Source: a virus
Direction: 5' to 3' (one strand)
DNA: 34,112 bases
Virus record (IMG/VR): IMGVR_UViG_3300042540_000531
Coordinates: 1 to 34,112 of that record
Both the position numbers and the translations under genes were made by a program. Below, piece by piece: positions 25,912-33,403 of the stretch. The first letter of the stretch is position 1, and every line of letters begins with the position of its first letter. The notes below the pieces were generated by a model. It worked only from the letters and a program-made list of their open reading frames with translations. It was not told the DNA's origin and ran no database searches.

Positions 25912-26664
25912 CCGCACCGCACCGAGACCCGCTCTCACATGCAGATCATTCGCATCATCGCCAAGTGTAGGACTTATGCACCACGGCAACCCGCTAGCCT
26001 TCGCAACCCGTTGACCCGTTCCGCTCGCATCATGATCGGCAACAATGCGCCCGCCCGTAATCCTTGCCACATGCCCCAGATTGCCCGCGCTGAAGCACAC
26101 CACCACCCGCACATCAGAAAACCGCAACGCCGCTTGCACGCTCAGCCCGGTCGCGTAGCCTTCGACTAGCCACGGCTCCCGACCCCGACCGAGCACGAAC
26201 ACCGCGCCTTTCGCCCGCGTGCCTGGTATGAAGCGCTTTTCACCACTGACTTGGATTCTCTGGGCGCCCACCACCCGCTGCGTATTTACATCCCTCATGG
26301 GTACGATCAGCTCTTCACCAACGACTAGCCCCTTCGCATCCGGGAATCCCTTGGCTTTCAGATAGGGATGCTGCGCCATGGTTGCCCTATTGATCAGCTC
26401 CTGCGCTTGCTTGGCCGCCCGTGCGTGCTTGATACGCTCTTCACTATCGTCAAAGTATTTGATGAACTGGCTGACCTTCTCACCATACCGGGCGAACGAT
26501 TCCATGGTTGCCCAGTTCTTCACCACTCCTGAGTTGCCATCAAAGATGTAAGCGCCATTCCTTTTGCGTGGCTTATCTACCGTTGGTACCCGGTGCCACC
26601 TGCCATCAGGTATGGCATGGTTGATGATCAAACCGTGGGCCTGTGCATGTGCAACAAAACTCAT
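25882..26664 (-). CDS. Toprim-domain (primase-like) protein
   Basis: 260 residues from ATG 26664, overlapping the preceding stop (ATGA). A basic N-terminal part (GRWHRVPTVDKPRKRNGAYI) and a helix lead to AQHPYLKAKGFPDAKGLVVG, LIVPMRDV and VVGAQRIQV, as in phage primase-type proteins. The Toprim core has WLVEGYATGLS (catalytic E168) and IVADHDASGTG (209-217, metal-binding DHD). It lacks the N-terminal zinc finger and any helicase domain, so it may be a partner of the SF2 helicase in the same operon. It is the last gene of the operon. Confidence 0.8.
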   Translation of the reverse strand: MSFVAHAQAHGLIINHAIPDGRWHRVPTVDKPRKRNGAYIFDGNSGVVKNWATMESFARYGEKVSQFIKYFDDSEERIKHARAAKQAQELINRATMAQHPYLKAKGFPDAKGLVVGEELIVPMRDVNTQRVVGAQRIQVSGEKRFIPGTRAKGAVFVLGRGREPWLVEGYATGLSVQAALRFSDVRVVVCFSAGNLGHVARITGGRIVADHDASGTGQRVAKASGLPWCISPTLGDDANDLHVRAGLGAVRSMLRDCVIG

Positions 26665-27023
26665 GCGTTTTTCTCCTCAAGGAACTTGTCTATGGCGTTA
26701 ATGAGCTCCGCCCTGTCAGTGTATTTCTCGTAGAAATCTTCTGCTTCATTTAGCGTCAGCCCTACCCATTCGCGCTTAGGTGGTGCATGAACCATCTGCT
26801 CACCGTCCCACACAGCACCGCAGACGCAGGTCAAGTCACGCTTGCTTGATGCTGCTACAGACTCACGCTCGTCTGCGGCTACAAGTGCAGCGAAGCGCTC
26901 TAAATCCTTGTGAGTAAAAGCATAAAGACCGTATGGGGTTTTTGTCATCATCAACAAAGTTTCCCACGGCTTGCGTGTGCCTTCTTGTATAGCAAGTTCA
27001 TCTAGTCCGATGTGATTAGTCAT
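26661..27023 (-). CDS. Phage modular small protein (FAALVAA family)
   Basis: 120 residues. Central ERFAALVAADERESVAAS matches the family in the neighbouring genes; then a CxCG pair (TCVCGAVW) and a C-terminal WVGLTLNEAEDFYEKYTDRA ending LEEKNA. The WVGLT...LxEKN end is shared with the gene at 27740. Overlaps its neighbours by 4 bases on each side. Function unknown. Confidence 0.7.
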   Translation of the reverse strand: MTNHIGLDELAIQEGTRKPWETLLMMTKTPYGLYAFTHKDLERFAALVAADERESVAASSKRDLTCVCGAVWDGEQMVHAPPKREWVGLTLNEAEDFYEKYTDRAELINAIDKFLEEKNA

Positions 27024-27247
27024 TGCTCACCCCTTGCTCTGATGGCTATTGCACATGATTGCGTCCAGGCCATTTCGTTGTGGTCAACCTTGCCTGTCTT
27101 GTATTCAGCGTCCACTTTCTCATCACACACCATCGCACACGCCTCTCTTTCTCTGGCTGCGACTAATTGGCAAAGAGCGTAAACGGCCTCACCCACTACT
27201 ACGATGCCGTTGTCTCGCATTAAGTCATCAATGTCGTCTCGTGTCAT
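27020..27247 (-). CDS. Phage modular small protein
   Basis: 75 residues, MTRDDIDDLMRDNGIVVVGE, then YALCQLVAAREREACAMVCD and the end AIAIRARGEQ. Belongs to the family described at 27244; ATGA overlap with neighbours on both sides. The MAREAG-type start is degenerate here. Function unknown. Confidence 0.7.
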   Translation of the reverse strand: MTRDDIDDLMRDNGIVVVGEAVYALCQLVAAREREACAMVCDEKVDAEYKTGKVDHNEMAWTQSCAIAIRARGEQ

Positions 27248-27531
27248 TGCTCACCCCTTGCTCTGATTGCTTCGGCGCACCGTTTAGCACCTTCAGCAAT
27301 ACGCAGTAGCCCTTGATTGCCTCGTGGTAGATAAAACGCTTCTTGGTGGTAAGCCTCATTCGCTTCTTCTAAACACAACTTCGCACACGCCTCACGCTCT
27401 GCTGCCGCAACAAGGGCGGCGAAGCGTTCAAGGAACTCTCTTTCGGCTTTCCACTCCCCATTCAAGCCGTCCGCAATACCTTCTGCCAGCCCAGCCTCCC
27501 GCGCCAGCTTGATGATGTCTTCTTGGGTCAT
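27244..27531 (-). CDS. Phage modular small protein (MAREAG family)
   Basis: 95 residues, the fullest form of the family: N-terminal MTQEDIIKLAREAGLAEGIA, core FLERFAALVAAAEREACAKL, end CAEAIRARGEQ. Small proteins built of these three motifs occur in many phages, often in several copies. The Cys/Glu-rich core looks helical. No function is known to me. Coupled by ATGA to both neighbours. Confidence 0.75.
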   Translation of the reverse strand: MTQEDIIKLAREAGLAEGIADGLNGEWKAEREFLERFAALVAAAEREACAKLCLEEANEAYHQEAFYLPRGNQGLLRIAEGAKRCAEAIRARGEQ

Positions 27532-27743
27532 ATCTCACCTTTGATGACGTTGATCGCATACTTGTAGTAGGTGTGCGATTCGTTTCGCTCTTGCAGTCGC
27601 TCAAGGATGTCGATGATCTGCTTCTCTTTCTCAGCCGCAACAAGGGCGGCGAAGCGTTCAAATAATTCGAGGTTTGCGCCCGTGTATGAGACTGGGTTAA
27701 AACCAGCCTCTCGCGCCATCTTGATAATGTCGTCTCGTGTCAT
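27528..27743 (-). CDS. Phage modular small protein (MAREAG family)
   Basis: 71 residues: MTRDDIIKMAREAGFNPVSY, then LFERFAALVAAEKEKQIIDI and a different helical end (RLQERNESHTYYKYAINVIK). Lacks the CAKVC and AIRARG parts, so it is a mosaic variant. ATGA overlaps on both sides. Confidence 0.7.
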   Translation of the reverse strand: MTRDDIIKMAREAGFNPVSYTGANLELFERFAALVAAEKEKQIIDILERLQERNESHTYYKYAINVIKGEI

Positions 27744-28093
27744 GTGTTCTTCTCCTTTAGTTTGGCTTCGACGGCTTCAAGACGCTGAATGTCTGTACCG
27801 TAAAATGCCTCAACCAATTTTTCTTTTTCCTCATCAGTCAGCCCAACCCATTGCTTTGGGGTTACTTTTTCGTGGTATGTCTGGTCATTCATTACTGCCA
27901 TAGCAAGTGCTTGGCACGTTTTGCAGGGAGTTGGGTCTTTGTAAAGCGCAGTCCATCGGTCAGGGTGACGGCCAATATCTGCGGGTATGTGCGTGATGAC
28001 ATTATTCTCAATAAAGTTGTGCATCCACGCCACCGGCTCATGTTCATCAAGATATGACCTTGGCTTCTGGTGCATGTTGTGATCCCCGCTCAT
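27740..28093 (-). CDS. EPVAWM...-type phage hypothetical protein
   Basis: 117 residues. Start placed at ATG 28093 (MSGDHNMHQKPRSYLDEHEP) because it overlaps the stop of the small HTH gene (ATGA) and has GGAAGG just upstream; the longer frame from 28174 lies inside that gene. Motifs EPVAWMHNFIENN, DRWTALYKDPTPCKTC and KQWVGLTDEEKEKLVEAF, ending LKEKNT. The EPVAW and WxxLY parts are common in small phage proteins. Function unknown. Confidence 0.7.
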   Translation of the reverse strand: MSGDHNMHQKPRSYLDEHEPVAWMHNFIENNVITHIPADIGRHPDRWTALYKDPTPCKTCQALAMAVMNDQTYHEKVTPKQWVGLTDEEKEKLVEAFYGTDIQRLEAVEAKLKEKNT

Positions 28094-28266
28094 ACCTTCC
28101 CCCCAAGTAGTAGCCTCAATGAATCCATAACCCAGTACTTCGGGCCTGTCGTTATCCCCGCGGCGATACGCCATATCGATGACTGCGTTACACCAATTGA
28201 CTTGGCAATCTGGTGATGCGTCATGCCCCTAGCTTCCAGCGCCCTCACTATTTCCTGTGGCGTCAT
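28090..28266 (-). CDS. Small XRE/Cro-like HTH protein
   Basis: 58 residues, ATG 28266 overlapping the helicase stop (ATGA), TGA at 28090-28092 overlapping the next start. MTPQEIVRALEARGMTHHQI followed by AKSIGVTQSSIWRIAAG is a classic helix-turn-helix, with the turn at GVTQSS. The C-terminal KYWVMDSLRLLLGGKV resembles the dimer helix of Cro-like proteins. Probably a transcriptional regulator of this operon or of the divergent promoter. Confidence 0.8.
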   Translation of the reverse strand: MTPQEIVRALEARGMTHHQIAKSIGVTQSSIWRIAAGITTGPKYWVMDSLRLLLGGKV

Positions 28267-29786
28267 ACCAACCTCCTTGCAAACTTACTCTTCGCATACT
28301 TGATGACCTGCTGCTTGACCTTGTTCTGCGTAACCATCCTGGGCTCCACAAAGACCGCCTCGTGGAACTTCCACTTAGGCCAATCCCCAGTCAGGTTCTT
28401 GTACTGAGCCTTGGCAAACCGCTCGGCCGCCGCAAGATCCCCGCGCTTCCTGTCCTTGCTGATCTGCACAATCTCCCACCAGACCAGCCGCCTGTCCGCC
28501 ATCCAATCAGATGACTTGGTGCCGCCAAACTCCACCATCTGACCCTGAACCGAAAGCACATTGCTCATGGCCCTGCGCTCTGATCCACACGATGGACACA
28601 CCCGGCCGCGGAACATGTACCCACAAGCCGTGCATTTGATCTCTGCCTTCTCCTTCTCAGTCGGCTCCTTGCGTACCTTGGCATCCAGCTTTCCGTCTTC
28701 TAGTTCCTGTACGCCATGGGCAAATACCTCTACCTGATCCTCCCAGAACCGAGTCAGATTGCCTGCGTGATCTAACCAAACCGCGAAGGCCTTGCCGGGA
28801 TTCGGGCGCATGACCCTGCCCATCTGCTGAATATGGCCTGATAATGATTTTCTATATGGCCTGGCACATACACCGATTTTAATATCTGTAACATCAAATC
28901 CTTTTGCTAATGCTTCACAGGATATTAATCCGATTATCTCGCTGTCTGGTTTTCTGAACTCATCGATTAATTCCCTGCGCCGTTCATTATTACCATCCTT
29001 ATAACTGATTTGCTGAAAGTTATAACCCCTCTGTGCAAACTCTCTGCATAATTCCTCACCGTGTGCAACGGTTGCGCTAAATACAATAGTTTTAACTGGG
29101 CCGCCAAAGTGTTTATTCGTTGCTTGCACCCACTCGGTAACAACATCGCCAACGATCTCAACTCCTTGTTTTTCCATATCTTTTTCTGCCCACTCGCCGT
29201 CAAACTTAACTTCGGCGCCGCGCATATCCATCTCGTTCTTCGCTACAAACATTTTAACTGGCACTAACCAACCGTCATTAATTAGTTTATCGGTCGTGGT
29301 GCTATTTACTACGTTAGTAAATATCTTTGATAATCCTTTTGTAAATGGTGTTGCAGTTAATCCAACAACAATTGCATCAGGATATTTTTCAATCGCATTA
29401 ATTACTGAACGGTGTAATACATGCGCTTCATCAACAACGATTAACTTTGGTTCATTATCTATCTTGCGACGCGCTAATGTCTGCGCGGATATAACCTGCA
29501 CATATTCGTATGGACGCCACCGCCAGTGATCCGCCTGTATGACGCCATGGGATACGCCATACCTATCCAGTGTTGCGCTGGTCTGGTCTACCAGTGACAC
29601 GCGATCGCATATAAACCAAGCCACGTTCTGCTTGGCCCTTGCCTCGTTCAGTAAGTAGCTGGCACTGACCGTCTTGCCCGCGCCAGTTGGCGCAACCAGG
29701 ATCTGGGATCGATGCCCCTTGCGGACGCCATCCCTCAGTTCATCCAGTGCTTTGATTTGGTAGTCACGCAGACTTTCGATCAGCAT
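28263..29786 (-). CDS. SF2 DEAH helicase
   Basis: 507 residues from ATG 29786 (MLIESLRDYQIKALDELRDG; GGAAG 4 bases upstream), preferred to an ATG 15 codons earlier. Motifs: Q-like LRDYQ; Walker A APTGAGKT (32-39); DEAH (119-122); TATPF (144-148); VFSAT (235-239); arginine finger QMGRVMRP (321-328). A zinc ribbon follows (C385, C388, C397, C400). This is the Type III restriction/DEAD-like helicase class used by many phages for replication or recombination. The start overlaps the ParB-like gene by 23 bases. With the Toprim protein it probably serves DNA replication. Confidence 0.9.
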   Translation of the reverse strand: MLIESLRDYQIKALDELRDGVRKGHRSQILVAPTGAGKTVSASYLLNEARAKQNVAWFICDRVSLVDQTSATLDRYGVSHGVIQADHWRWRPYEYVQVISAQTLARRKIDNEPKLIVVDEAHVLHRSVINAIEKYPDAIVVGLTATPFTKGLSKIFTNVVNSTTTDKLINDGWLVPVKMFVAKNEMDMRGAEVKFDGEWAEKDMEKQGVEIVGDVVTEWVQATNKHFGGPVKTIVFSATVAHGEELCREFAQRGYNFQQISYKDGNNERRRELIDEFRKPDSEIIGLISCEALAKGFDVTDIKIGVCARPYRKSLSGHIQQMGRVMRPNPGKAFAVWLDHAGNLTRFWEDQVEVFAHGVQELEDGKLDAKVRKEPTEKEKAEIKCTACGYMFRGRVCPSCGSERRAMSNVLSVQGQMVEFGGTKSSDWMADRRLVWWEIVQISKDRKRGDLAAAERFAKAQYKNLTGDWPKWKFHEAVFVEPRMVTQNKVKQQVIKYAKSKFARRLV

Positions 29787-30582
29787 GTTTCTTCCAATAC
29801 AGAACTTGTTTCTTGAGTTCGGCGCACTCACGCTGCCACTTGTCCCGTGCCTCGGTGAGGTTGTCGATCGTGGACTGCATTTGCTTCATGGTTTGGTAGT
29901 GCTCTGTATCCCTGAGCGCTGTAAGGATCGTTACTTCCTTGGCCAACTCTTGGTAGTTATCAAGGATCTCTTGATACTGCTCATTCAGCTCGTCGTAAGA
30001 CGCCTTCAGAGCGTCGTACTTCTCTTGTGCCACGGCTGACTTCAAGACGGGTTTAACGGGCGCTGGTGGCACGTTCTCTGGCTCATCCTTGTCTACCACC
30101 CTGATTGCCTCTGAGAGGCTCATAGCGCCTTTCTTGACCGCCTCAATGACCTCCTGGTCGCCTGACTGCGCAACCTTCTTGGCCCGCTCTACCGATCGCT
30201 TGCCTACTCCAGCACGCTTGGCCATCTCATCTGAGGTAATTCCGCCAGCTGGCGGAATTTGATACTTTCGTAGGGGGGTACCCACGCCTGCCCATGTACT
30301 GCAAGTGACCACGGCCATGGCTTTTTGTGCTGGTGATAGATGCCGGCGATGAAGATTCAGGTCGATGACATAGGCCACTGGGTCTTTGCCATCGTACTCA
30401 TGGAAGGATGGATTGATGTCCAGCTGTAAGCAGGCACGGAACCTATGCCATCCGTCCAGGATCTTGTTCTCATACGTGGTGATGGGTTCACGCTGCCCAT
30501 GGGTTTTGATGGATTCCAATAGGTCTTGGAAGTCCTCATCGGGCATGTCGGGGAATGCTGCTGATAACTGGTGTCTTTCCAT
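29764..30582 (-). CDS. ParB-like DNA-binding protein
   Basis: 272 residues from ATG 30582. The N-terminal ParB/sulfiredoxin-like fold carries LLESIKTHGQREPITTYENK and ILDGWHRFRAC (41-51, the nucleotide/catalytic region), then LNLHRRHLSPAQKAMAVV. A helix-turn-helix follows (SDEMAKRAGVGKRSVERAKK, 117-136). Inserted before the HTH is YQIPPAGGIT, encoded by the palindromic element at 30236. The C-terminus is a coiled coil (185-265). ParB-like phage proteins act in DNA partition, regulation or as nucleases. Its AAGAGAGAA ribosome site falls in the last, degenerate repeat of the array. Confidence 0.85.
   Translation of the reverse strand: MERHQLSAAFPDMPDEDFQDLLESIKTHGQREPITTYENKILDGWHRFRACLQLDINPSFHEYDGKDPVAYVIDLNLHRRHLSPAQKAMAVVTCSTWAGVGTPLRKYQIPPAGGITSDEMAKRAGVGKRSVERAKKVAQSGDQEVIEAVKKGAMSLSEAIRVVDKDEPENVPPAPVKPVLKSAVAQEKYDALKASYDELNEQYQEILDNYQELAKEVTILTALRDTEHYQTMKQMQSTIDNLTEARDKWQRECAELKKQVLYWKKHADRKSA
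30236..30277 (+). repeat. Palindromic 42-base element, copy inside the ParB-like gene
   Basis: GTAAT, palindrome TCCGCCAGCTGGCGGA (30241-30256), then ATTTGATACTTTCGTAGGGGG. On the coding strand it reads PLRKYQIPPAGGIT, just before the HTH. Compare 10724 and 21028. Confidence 0.9.
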
Positions 30583-31719
30583 ATTTCTCTCTTAAGTTAA
30601 TGACGCTCGGTAACTTTGGTGCTCACGATTTTTTTGACTCACTTCACGATAATGGTTCTCTCTCAAGTGCTGGTTCGTTCGTGTACTTTGGTTCTCTCAG
30701 CCTGGCTGACTCACTCTCATACCAAGGTTCTCTCGCAATCTCTGGTTCGTTCTGGACGATTGGTTCTCTCTCTTTTTCTGACTCGCTCGGCCGAATTGGT
30801 GCTCTTGGCCAACTTGGCTCACTCTCGATTTATGGTTCTCTTCCATTGCTTGGTTCGTTTACAACTTGTGGTTCTCTCCATTAACTTGACTCACTCTGGG
30901 CGGATGGTGCTCTGGGCTCGAGTGGTTCACTTGACCGATTTGGTTCTCTCTCCGCTCTAGGTTCGTTCGGCTGACCCGGTTCTTTCTGCGTCGATGACTC
31001 ACTTTCCGTTCATGGTTCTCTCTTGATCGGCGATTCGTTCGGCTGACTAGGTTCCATCTGCGTCGATGACTCACTTTCCGGAAATGGTTCTCTTGCTTGT
31101 TTAGGTTCGTTCTGTCGCGCTGGTTCTCTCTCTTAATGTGACTCGTTCCTGTTGGCAGGCTCTCTTACCCGACATGACTCACTCTATCAACGATAAAACT
31201 ATCAGTGGTCTTGGTTCGTTTCGCTCCTATGGTTCTCTCAGATGTGTTGACTCGTTCTGTCTGCATGGCTCTCTCAATCTAGCTGACTCGTTCGCATGAA
31301 TTGGTTCTATCGATTACCTTGACTCGCTTCCTCAGCATGGTGCTATTTATACCCCTGGCTCGTTCTATGTGTGTGGTTCTCTCACTCTGAGTGACTCGTT
31401 CTATTCATATGGCACTCTCATCAAAGCTGACTCGTTTGATCTCCTTGGTTCTCTCGATGCTCGGTGACTCGTTCTCGTGATATGGATCTCTCGGGCTTCT
31501 TGACTCGCTCTGACTGATTGGTTCTCTCTTCAAAAATGACTCGTTCTTTGTTGATGGTTCTCTCAATGCTCATGACTCGTTCACTAATAGTGGTTCTCTC
31601 GCGCAGATTGACTCGTTCCTTCTGTATGGTTCTCTCAGAGCAGATGACTCGTTCTATGGTTTTGGTTCTATCTTGTTCGATGACTCACTCTCATAACTTG
31701 GAGCTCTCACCTAGGGTGG
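30582..31719 (-). repeat. TIGR-like dual-spacer guide RNA array
   Basis: Regular array with an 18-base step from 30617 to 31716 (61 steps), plus a 16-base degenerate step at 30601 and a remnant at 30582. Two repeats alternate strictly (plus-strand form): A, consensus TGGTTCTCTC (14 exact copies), and B, consensus TGACTCGTTC (9 exact; variants TGACTCACTC, TGGTTCGTTC). Each is followed by a unique 8-base spacer, so one full unit is 36 bases with two spacers, about 31 units. Only two steps are 19 bases (31193, 31446) and one A repeat is ruined (31193). It ends at the stop codon of the Nop-like gene (31720) and at the start of the ParB-like gene. On the operon strand repeats read GAGAGAACCA and GAACGAGTCA. 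This matches the published TIGR layout. Confidence 0.9.
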
Positions 31720-32514
31720 TTAAACAGGTGACGGTATGAAATGAGCATGGCCCATGTGTGCAATCGGATAGGGCAGTGGCGGCTTTGTGCCAAAGTGCGT
31801 CTCATACCATGCGCCGTGCAGGTGTGATAAGAAAAGCTTCACTGCATACCTTCTTGCTCTTGCATCGATCTGGCCTGGTGGTAGTACGCCATTGGATAGA
31901 TGCTTGTAAGCTTCCGTGGTTTTACTTACCTTCTCCTTAAGTTGCTCGGCCAGTTCCTTGTTATCACCACGCTCATTGCGGGCGATCTCAAAGTTCTTGC
32001 GCTCCCTGTATATGTGACCGTAGTAGCAGTCATCACGGCCAGAGAATTTCATAAAGGATTGGCCAGCCTTCCAGCAAAGCGTCTTCAGTCCTGCATTCCA
32101 TGGGCGCTTCTGCCCCTTTTCCCATTTGCTTGTGGGATCTAATCCAGCATAGCGCCAGATATGTCCAACAGTAGGGGCCTTCTCAATATCAATGTGCGCT
32201 AACAGCCCCGCGGAAATGACCGGCCCGATGCCGACGATCTCACGCATCCATGCGCCCATGACGTGCGACTCAGTGTAGGAATCAAGCGCCTTCTTGATCT
32301 GCTCTTCCAAGCCCTTGGATTGGGATGCTAGCCAGCCGATCACCGCATTGGGCTCCATGGATTCATCCAGCGCCCGGACTTGGTTGGTGGAACGCTTACG
32401 GTCCTCCTGGGCGATGTAGTAGTAATCGACCAGGAATCTTGCCTCATCATCAGACAGCTTGGCGGCTGCGACTTTAAGGTCCTTGGTCAGCTTCATGATT
32501 GGTTCTAAGTTCAT
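31720..32514 (-). CDS. IS110/Nop-domain protein, Tas-like guide RNA partner
   Basis: 264 residues from ATG 32514, overlapping the winged-helix stop (ATGA). N-terminal 90 residues are helical (coiled-coil-like, LASQSKGLEEQIKKALDSYT). Then comes the IS110 Transposase_20/Nop-type core: VGIGPVISAGLLAHID (94-109, helix-hairpin-helix), IWRYAGLDP (119-127), NAGLKTLCWKAGQSFMK (140-156), a charged helix, and YAVKLFLSHLHGAWYETHFG (213-232). It lacks the N-terminal RuvC-like DEDD domain of true IS110 transposases, and shows no HNH or RuvC insert. Together with the adjoining 36-base array this fits a nuclease-less Tas protein that would bind dual-guide RNA. It could act by binding alone (silencing) or recruit a separate nuclease. 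Alternative: an IS110 relic, less likely given the array. Confidence 0.8.
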   Translation of the reverse strand: MNLEPIMKLTKDLKVAAAKLSDDEARFLVDYYYIAQEDRKRSTNQVRALDESMEPNAVIGWLASQSKGLEEQIKKALDSYTESHVMGAWMREIVGIGPVISAGLLAHIDIEKAPTVGHIWRYAGLDPTSKWEKGQKRPWNAGLKTLCWKAGQSFMKFSGRDDCYYGHIYRERKNFEIARNERGDNKELAEQLKEKVSKTTEAYKHLSNGVLPPGQIDARARRYAVKLFLSHLHGAWYETHFGTKPPLPYPIAHMGHAHFIPSPV

Positions 32515-32750
32515 AGTTTCCCCGCTAGGTTGAATGGGTCATGCCAACTAAATTCTTTGTATGTGTAAAGCAACTGATTAAATCGGACCGGGTGTTTGGT
32601 TGCTGTTACATAACCAAGCCCTGTCAGTAAACGCAAACGCTCTGCCGCCGTGGTTCTTGAGACGCCAAAGTGTTTTGCAGCATCCTCTGACGTGAAAGGT
32701 TCTTTACGATCCTTTATCCACGCCAGATAAGATTCATCGATGGGTTTCAC
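32511..32750 (-). CDS. Small winged-helix DNA-binding protein
   Basis: 79 residues with a GTG start at 32750, chosen because AGGGGG lies 4 bases upstream and ATG-started forms run through unrelated sequence. PIDESYLAWIKDRKEPFTSE, then DAAKHFGVSRTTAAERLRLL and TGLGYVTATKHP form a winged helix (recognition helix SRTTAAERLRLL, wing ATKHPVRF). Coupled by ATGA to the Nop-like gene and by a 17-base overlap to the gene before it. It may regulate the array operon. Confidence 0.8.
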   Translation of the reverse strand: MKPIDESYLAWIKDRKEPFTSEDAAKHFGVSRTTAAERLRLLTGLGYVTATKHPVRFNQLLYTYKEFSWHDPFNLAGKL

Positions 32751-32973
32751 TGTTCCCCCTTGCTCGGATTGCTTGTGCGGCCACCTTTGTAATGTCTGAC
32801 GCATATTCAGGATGTACAGCAAGCACATCACACACCTTCGCACACGCCTCACGCTCTGCTGCGGCAACAAGGGCGGCGAATGCTTCAAGCTGCCCTTCCC
32901 AACAAGTCCACCCAAGGCCATACTTTGCGATCCCCGCCTTCCGCGCCATCTTGACTATGTCTTCTTGGGCCAT
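32734..32973 (-). CDS. Phage modular small protein (MAREAG family)
   Basis: 79 residues from ATG 32973 with GAGGTG upstream; a longer frame to 33024 would enter the previous gene. MAQEDIVKMARKAGIAKYGL, LEAFAALVAAAEREACAKVC and AAQAIRARGNSE place it in the same family as 27244, though about 5 kb away across the array. Function unknown. Confidence 0.7.
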   Translation of the reverse strand: MAQEDIVKMARKAGIAKYGLGWTCWEGQLEAFAALVAAAEREACAKVCDVLAVHPEYASDITKVAAQAIRARGNSETHR

Positions 32974-32975
32974 GC

Positions 32976-33242
32976 TCACCTCATTCCTCGTATGGCGGTG
33001 GCGCTGTAGTCGGGACGAACCCAATCGCCTTTTGCTATGGCGATGCAGTCGTCCGAATCCAGCATGTAATCGCCTTCAGTGACGCAGTAATCGTCTTCCT
33101 CTTTGATCGCCTTGCAGATGCGATCACGCTCATGATCGGCAACAAGGGCAGCAAAACGTGTTACAGAACCTAATGGCTTTTCGTCAGATCCGTAAGCCAA
33201 TCCAGCCTCCCGCGCCATGCGGATGATGTCCTCGCGGTCCAT
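32976..33242 (-). CDS. Phage modular small protein (MAREAG family)
   Basis: 88 residues: MDREDIIRMAREAGLAYGSD, RFAALVADHERDRICKAIKE, and an Asp/Tyr-rich C-terminal (TEGDYMLDSDDCIAIAKGDW) that differs from its relatives. The start overlaps the stop of the 40-residue gene by one base (TGATG). Function unknown. Confidence 0.7.
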   Translation of the reverse strand: MDREDIIRMAREAGLAYGSDEKPLGSVTRFAALVADHERDRICKAIKEEDDYCVTEGDYMLDSDDCIAIAKGDWVRPDYSATAIRGMR

Positions 33243-33364
33243 CAGAACGGTGCCTCTTCAATAGGCTCCTCCGCCACGGGTTGCTTCTCAAGCACCTCTC
33301 CGTCTTCGCAGTAGTGGTATTTGAATGGCCATTTATCGCCAAGCTGTTTGATGATTTCGTCCAT
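33242..33364 (-). CDS. 40-residue acidic protein
   Basis: ATG 33364 with a strong AAGGAG 6 bases upstream, TGA 33242-33244 overlapping the next start by one base. The product reads MDEIIKQLGDKWPFKYHYCE, then DGEVLEKQPVAEEPIEEAPF. An amphipathic helix and a Pro/Glu tail. The ribosome site and tight coupling argue for a real gene despite the length. Function unknown. Confidence 0.65.
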   Translation of the reverse strand: MDEIIKQLGDKWPFKYHYCEDGEVLEKQPVAEEPIEEAPF

Positions 33365-33403
33365 GGTTATCTCCTTGTCGGTAGGAGTATTTAACCACAG
33401 TTT

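Follow-up and report, generated by a model that had tools for sequence, protein, structure and literature searches.

A phage-borne TIGR-TasA locus with covarying guide-unit ends and guides that match an unrelated phage group

The described system closest to the locus considered here is TIGR-TasA with TasParB, which, according to the parts of Faure et al. on which we draw (PMC12045711), combines a Tas protein with a solo Nop domain, a ParB-like gene in the same operon, and an array of 10-nt dual repeats that in some cases lies between the two genes. Genuine targets of TIGR-Tas systems are characterized there as difficult to identify and the function of the nuclease-lacking TasA as less apparent, and we found no natural TIGR-Tas target reported in the portions of the open-license literature searched, including PMC12385481. 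Here, we analyze a locus of this kind from a 34,112-base virus record of IMG/VR (IMGVR_UViG_3300042540_000531, positions 1 to 34,112; this whole stretch is called the window below), in which terminase, capsid, and helicase genes are also present. By computation, the system is a TIGR-TasA with TasParB of the published kind (Faure 2025), the ends of its guide units covary as paired ends would, and guides of its clade match one unrelated phage group without a gap and in a single orientation of the two spacers. We consider it very probable that this is a phage-borne, TasParB-associated TIGR-TasA aimed at a rival phage, which it would block by binding without cutting.

Compared with the TIGR-TasA loci in the parts of PMC12045711 used here, the window has a long array (31 units, against the 5 to 15 called most common), and its edge repeats, which bound the units, form a mosaic with pairing across units, whereas repeats are called conserved within a locus there. 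With TIGR-TasR and TasH (PDB 9mty, 21kl, and 9w04), the locus shares the protein fold, the 36-nt units, tandem spacers directed at opposite DNA strands, and paired edge halves, but its TasA is devoid of RuvC and HNH domains, its repeats begin with GA rather than the UG of TasR, and its spacers are 8 nt long (16 in total, as in SpTIGR) rather than 9. The IS110/IS621 bridge RNA recombinases resemble it in the RNA-binding core and fold (Z about 13); in contrast to them, no DEDD domain was found in the TasA of the window, which is accompanied by many short guides instead of one bridge RNA. The defining elements of the locus are as follows.

31720 to 32514, minus strand: tasA, coding for a 264-aa nuclease-less Tas (Nop-domain) protein (NF052498, phmmer, AlphaFold2 model, and Pfam)
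30604 to 31721, minus strand: TIGR dual-repeat array made up of 31 units, each 36 nt long except for two that are 1 nt longer, with truncated half-edges at both ends (repeat parse)
31717 to 31721, minus strand: 5' half-edge AACCA, overlapping the tasA stop codon (TAA) (sequence)
30604 to 30608, minus strand: 3' half-edge GAGCG, the end of the array (repeat parse)
29764 to 30582, minus strand: tasParB-like gene with a ParB/Spo0J-like N-terminal domain (profile matches) and, by eye, a helix-turn-helix (HTH) and a coiled coil

A first-pass annotation, made from the letters alone, had proposed a TIGR-Tas-like system without a fused nuclease, whose protein has an IS110/Nop-like core but no DEDD, RuvC, or HNH domain; the protein family, its relatives, its fold, the array, and the anatomy of the array ends all agree with that proposal. 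In the profile comparison with Tas families that the annotation recommended, the 264-aa protein scores 221.7 bits against the NCBIfam TIGR-Tas model NF052498 (cut-off, 100) but 24.7 bits against the IS110 model, far below the cut-off of 140. Searches with phmmer relate it to TasR (9mty; 2e-12) and TasH (2e-10), and the best PDB fold matches of its AlphaFold2 model (pLDDT, 86.1; helices only) are TasH and TasR (Z, 17.8 to 19.1), followed by the IS110-family recombinases. The expected Tas-like fold was recovered in this way; Nop5 and Prp31, with which a comparison had also been suggested, are not among the fold matches listed. Pfam recognizes the Transposase_20/Nop-like core alone, at residues 91 to 130, and neither Pfam nor the model reveals an HNH, RuvC, or other nuclease domain or an N-terminal DEDD/RuvC catalytic domain of the IS110 type; with the IS110 model missed as well, the gene does not encode a full-length IS110 transposase. 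Although NF052498 describes its members as endonucleases, no nuclease domain is detectable in the protein of the window, and we therefore call it TasA, following the naming of nuclease-less Tas proteins in PMC12045711.

The array (1,118 nt) was parsed into 61 ten-base repeats at 18-base spacing, among which one loop repeat (GATAGTTTTA) is degenerate, giving 31 guide units between the truncated half-edges. This bears out the annotated pattern of two alternating 10-base repeats in 36-base dual-spacer units, the repeat length falling within the 8 to 12 nt of TIGR-Tas arrays; the spacer length of 8 bases holds for most of the array, with 9 bases in two places. Because of its place in the operon, the array is taken to be transcribed on the minus strand, so that the repeats read GAGAGAACCA (loop) and GAACGAGTCA (edge). 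The separation of two repeat types by the annotation was correct, but its single edge sequence was not: the edge repeat takes GAACGAGTCA, GAACGAACCA, GAGTGAGTCA, and GAGTGAACCA-type forms, following the pattern GA-x-y-GA-z-w-CA with variable middle bases. Both repeats thus have the form GA...CA and lack the UG motif of TasR; box motifs can diverge among TIGR systems, as stated in the sections of PMC12045711 used here.

The variation of the edge repeat follows a pairing rule. Each unit is flanked by the 3' half of one edge repeat and the 5' half of the following one, and these two halves pair as GU-AC, AC-GU, or GC-GC. Both pairs can form in all 29 units of the window that lie between full edges, whereas 22 of its 30 edge repeats pair within themselves, and all four junction types are present in the window. 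Across 25 arrays, 356 of 359 distinct units pair, against a mean of 0.824 and a maximum of 0.858 in 10,000 shuffles and 0.81 for pairing within a repeat. This covariation across units identifies which of the two repeats is the edge. Edge pairing is reported for the TasR structure in the consulted parts of PMC12045711, with which the predicted pairing in the window agrees. Across all parsed TasA arrays, the rule holds less strictly (1,132 of 1,319; shuffles, 965; maximum, 987 in 2,000); we use this figure as supporting evidence only because the edge parity was the one that fitted best and the parse of some distant arrays is poor.

The two ends of the array carry truncated edge repeats, as is characteristic of TIGR-Tas arrays: AACCA at the start, formed in part by the tasA stop codon, and GAGCG at the end. 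Among the 25 clade arrays listed, 21 have TGTTTAACC(A/G) at the position of the tasA stop, the remaining four being parsed from a later point. Each of the 21 clade arrays listed from the tasA stop codon has a first full edge of the GAGTG or AAGTG type.

Comparison of arrays between loci revealed what is passed on. A shared spacer A retains its spacer B in 715 of 902 comparisons, whereas a shared B retains the next A, across the edge, in 312 of 1,005; because the A-to-B linkage is kept and the B-to-A linkage mostly is not, it is the 36-nt unit that is inherited and exchanged. Some phages carry guides with A and B swapped: among 1,128 units, there are 17 such pairs at up to three differences against 4.1 expected and 6 against 0.6 expected at up to two, although they do not count as independent, since several stem from variants of a single family. 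Such guides would read the same double-stranded site from its opposite side, in agreement with the symmetry described for TasR. A position bias of variants within spacers is suggestive. A general 3-base periodicity of guide variants was not significant (p, 0.08 to 0.3), and the coding-frame argument below therefore rests on named families.

The strongest swapped family, which includes the window unit AGAAGCCC/TATCACGA, reads TAY CAC GAR GGY TYC on one strand, which translates as Tyr-His-Glu-Gly-Phe/Ser; by eye, most of the differences fall at third positions. This guess of a reading frame was recorded alongside the scans of viral sequences, before any scan result was seen. The site of a sister variant matched 15 contigs; in 10 of these, the match lies in one homologous gene, exactly in the guessed frame, and later clusterings gave the same 10. 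When 1,300 guides were compared with 178 kb of matched loci, 29 exact matches were found at gap 0 against a mispaired mean of 0.0, a count that includes the seed guides. Array variants resemble target variants, as in the five codons above (again read by eye). In metagenome 3300037508, the seed guide of one clade array (L011) exactly matches a target contig (L130) of the same metagenome; by a raw count, 3 of the 22 metagenomes to which the contig names of L002 to L025 refer (3300037508, 3300032116, and 3300023179) also contain a target contig.

The matches persist when the seed is removed. We kept the best 80 of 114 relatives of the targeted gene and compared 983 kb of the target phage group with 334 non-seed 8+8 units out of 354 clade guides, the six seed units and units of other lengths being excluded. 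At gap 0, these units gave 5 exact and 12 one-mismatch matches, against mispaired means of 0.17 and 4.0 and maxima of 2 and 7 in 40 trials; all other gaps from -4 to 8 gave no exact match for the same units and sequence. Only the arrangement of A followed by the reverse complement of B, A+rc(B), peaks at gap 0; the three other geometries and loop-register pairs do not. The opposite-strand tandem-spacer arrangement characteristic of TIGR-Tas is thereby observed statistically, not biochemically, for the clade guides. The 946 units of other TasA arrays, of which 788 are 8+8, had no exact match to the target group and 10 one-mismatch matches against 10.45 when mispaired. In a hot region of the 80 loci, 8 of the 334 units match within one mismatch, against 0.4 mispaired and at most 1 in 10 shuffles. 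When six contigs were searched whole (233 kb), a 1.6-kb stretch contained 10 units with up to two mismatches, where mispaired guides gave 1.55 (maximum, 5 in 20), the total of 50 units on these contigs being within the mispaired range (mean, 37.9; maximum, 53). The distinct recurrent sites are GCCAGGCT, TAAGAACC, TGGATYGC, and ACATGCGA, together with the seed site; weaker single cases exist besides.

The target is an unrelated group of uncultivated phages, in which the matches lie mostly in an early region of about 1 kb. Between the window and 18 loci, 10 of them of the target group, no nucleotide similarity was found, and open reading frames (ORFs) of at least 80 aa share only a helicase, at about 24%. 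In the target contig L134, the sites or their variants (up to three mismatches) lie between 3676 and 4667, in the end of a sigma factor-like gene, the following gap, a gene for a 154-aa protein (two sites), and the gene that precedes a Sak4-like recombinase, after which come helicase and primase genes. The 154-aa gene (L134, 3798 to 4262) has no PHROGs family, no Pfam family at the cut-off, and no relative among annotated phages. It is matched by two guide families and may have an important early role in the rival.

Two guide units of the window itself point to this group.

30676 to 30711, minus strand: guide unit with A = GCCAGGCT (30699 to 30706) and B = AAGTACAC (30681 to 30688), site GCCAGGCTGTGTACTT; exact site in 18 contigs
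31470 to 31505, minus strand: guide unit with A = AGAAGCCC (31493 to 31500) and B = TATCACGA (31475 to 31482); one mismatch from a variant of the YHEGF site

In the whole viral collection, 16 of the 18 contigs with an exact GCCAGGCTGTGTACTT form one homologous cluster (15 under a stricter test, 14 resembling the target genomes). A mispaired control on the whole collection, which joined the same A to another target-matching B, found 19 contigs, none in the group, with a largest cluster of 2. The second unit is one mismatch from AGAAGCCCTCGTGGTA, which is present in four target loci. Matching paired spacers to phage sequences, as the annotation had advised, has thus yielded matches in one unrelated phage group, and its guess that the system might block competing elements gains support to this extent: clade guides match another phage group in the opposite-strand geometry shown for TasR. 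These observations point to virus-against-virus warfare as the natural job of the system.

Type IV and V-M CRISPR systems of plasmids and phages interfere with rival elements by binding without cutting, and the mode of action proposed here is like theirs, although the proteins and guide RNAs are unrelated. Both are named by Faure et al. (PMC12045711, in the parts used here). Tandem pairing and a strong DNA bend are known from published work on TasR. The operon mRNA with its 31 guide units is probably cut within each edge repeat to give 36-nt tigRNAs with self-pairing ends. A TasA dimer with one tigRNA would then bind a contiguous 16-bp DNA site, its spacers A and B pairing with opposite strands, and binding without cutting might block transcription or replication at the early region of the target, at the head of its replication region. 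In phages bearing ParB, loading of ParB at the site would perhaps strengthen the block. ParB seems not to be needed for aiming because arrays that ParB does not follow (L009 to L016) match the same group. The TIGR phage would win when both phages enter one cell. A fuller picture is possible, although we judge it somewhat less likely than not: the arrays would be both the memory of the phage of a particular rival group and its weapon against it; the nuclease-less TasA would silence by binding 16-bp sites clustered at the head of the replication region of the rival; in ParB phages, the guide RNA would replace parS and ParB would spread over the early genes of the rival; and guides would follow synonymous codon variants, several arrays reaching the same site independently and some with swapped spacers.

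A number of results weigh against the view that these guides block a rival phage. In the hot region, matches at two mismatches are at background (14 against 12.2); this region and the 1.6-kb stretch were delimited with the sites already known, no more than six contigs (233 kb) were covered over their whole length, and the target loci were collected around the 154-aa gene, which favors its region. The non-seed matches include variants of one guide, leaving four distinct recurrent sites plus the seed. In the window, 2 of 31 units match the target group, one exactly and the other with one mismatch; the exact 16-mer of the latter (AGAAGCCC/TATCACGA) occurs in three unrelated contigs only; and a scan of the whole collection with three window sites supported a single one, which had been chosen after it matched the group. 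A third window guide, TCGAACAA, matches 33 contigs, with a cluster of 14 that is unsupported by any other guide, so that clustering alone proves nothing. Neither the target region nor the surroundings of tasA and the array yielded a sigma-70-like promoter, and ParB does not come after many arrays of the clade, some of which match the same targets. Chance clusters such as that of TCGAACAA would be expected if the matches were coincidences on conserved codons of an abundant phage group, the real targets being the host or other elements; against this, several independent guides converge on one group, at gap 0 and as A+rc(B) only, while mispaired, wrong-register, and other-clade guides do not, and we regard coincidence as very unlikely.

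It is also very unlikely that the same ribonucleoprotein serves self-regulation or partition of the own genome of the TIGR phage, through RNA-guided ParB loading or gene control. An operon of tasA with a ParB-like gene would suit such a role, and regulation is left open in the parts of PMC12045711 considered, but the 31 window units have no match to the 34 kb of the window at gaps from -2 to 6 with up to two mismatches. Nor do the clade guides show a gap-0 excess in 380 kb of the TIGR phages' own contigs (no exact match; three one-mismatch matches against 2.75), nor was one found over mispaired controls when units were compared with sister phages (343 kb and 915 kb around tas genes), and the many clade arrays that ParB does not follow argue in the same direction. 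The transposase label given to the protein by Pfam and PHROGs would suggest a remnant of an IS110-family transposon beside an unrelated tandem repeat; the bit scores of the two models, the fold list led by TasH and TasR with IS110-family recombinases after them, and the presence of comparable parsed arrays in 88 of 95 loci (a set that includes copies of one phage and some poor parses) leave this explanation with almost no credibility. For the blocking of a rival phage, the named 16-bp sites in a concrete phage group make TasA function directly testable, and these natural sites support, from sequence alone, a gap-less opposite-strand geometry, A/B symmetry, and tigRNA end pairing in a TasA system. 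The covarying edge halves, the inheritance of whole units with A/B-swapped guides, and the natural targets of the clade are new here; the target assignment, the swapped guides, and the edge mosaic within an array are not described in the portions of the open-license literature searched.

On the minus strand, the genes are ordered as an HTH-like gene, tasA, the TIGR array, the tasParB-like gene, and a helicase gene, the outer two being as follows.

32511 to 32921, minus strand: winged-helix/HTH-like gene, with a 4-nt overlap with the tasA start (ORF list; weak HTH matches, those in Pfam all below cut-offs)
28263 to 29831, minus strand: DEAD/ResIII helicase gene, overlapping the 3' end of tasParB (ORF list and profile matches)

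Given the 4-base overlap between the HTH-like gene and tasA and the overlap of the helicase gene with the ParB gene, all five elements likely lie on one operon mRNA. The HTH-like gene may be either an operon partner or a regulator of tasA, and the helicase gene is a probable continuation of the operon. The ParB-like gene, which escaped the first-pass annotation, directly follows the array; it matches TIGR00180 (E, 8e-6, below the curated cut-off), the ParB-like phrog_4715 (2e-17), and Spo0J (1vz0; E, 0.005). It lies on the same strand as tasA and adjoins the array, in keeping with the TasA-TasParB subtype, in which the ParB-like gene is operonic with tasA; cotranscription here is likely. Besides the window, 9 of 35 relatives have a ParB-like gene directly 3' of the array, a count to be read with many of the relative records being fragments in which the gene may lie elsewhere. 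No terminator-like site was found on the minus strand from 28200 to 33400, where tasParB immediately follows the array; according to the parts of PMC12045711 used, a rho-independent terminator after the array is typical, not defining, and some arrays lie between tasA and tasParB.

Several further features of TasA loci emerged. In the TasA proteins of L021 to L024, the YAGLDPTS core is followed by an insertion of about 48 residues (L021 and L024 were aligned), which looks HTH-like by eye, and other TasA phages have longer arrays (94 and 106 repeats parsed in L092 and L075). TasA relatives are also found in nine bacterial genome records (L110 to L118), with arrays parsed in six; carriers include Halomonas sp. 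NO4, Acidobacteriaceae KBS 96 (a 6.7-Mb scaffold), and Candidatus Propionivibrio aalborgensis, and these loci offer better-known settings for work on TasA. In the window, several small minus-strand ORFs at 26661 to 28174 and 32734 to 33242 share a similar start by eye, about MTRDDIIKMAREAG...FAALVAAAERE...AIRARGE, and thus form a set of repeated small paralogues on both sides of the TIGR operon.

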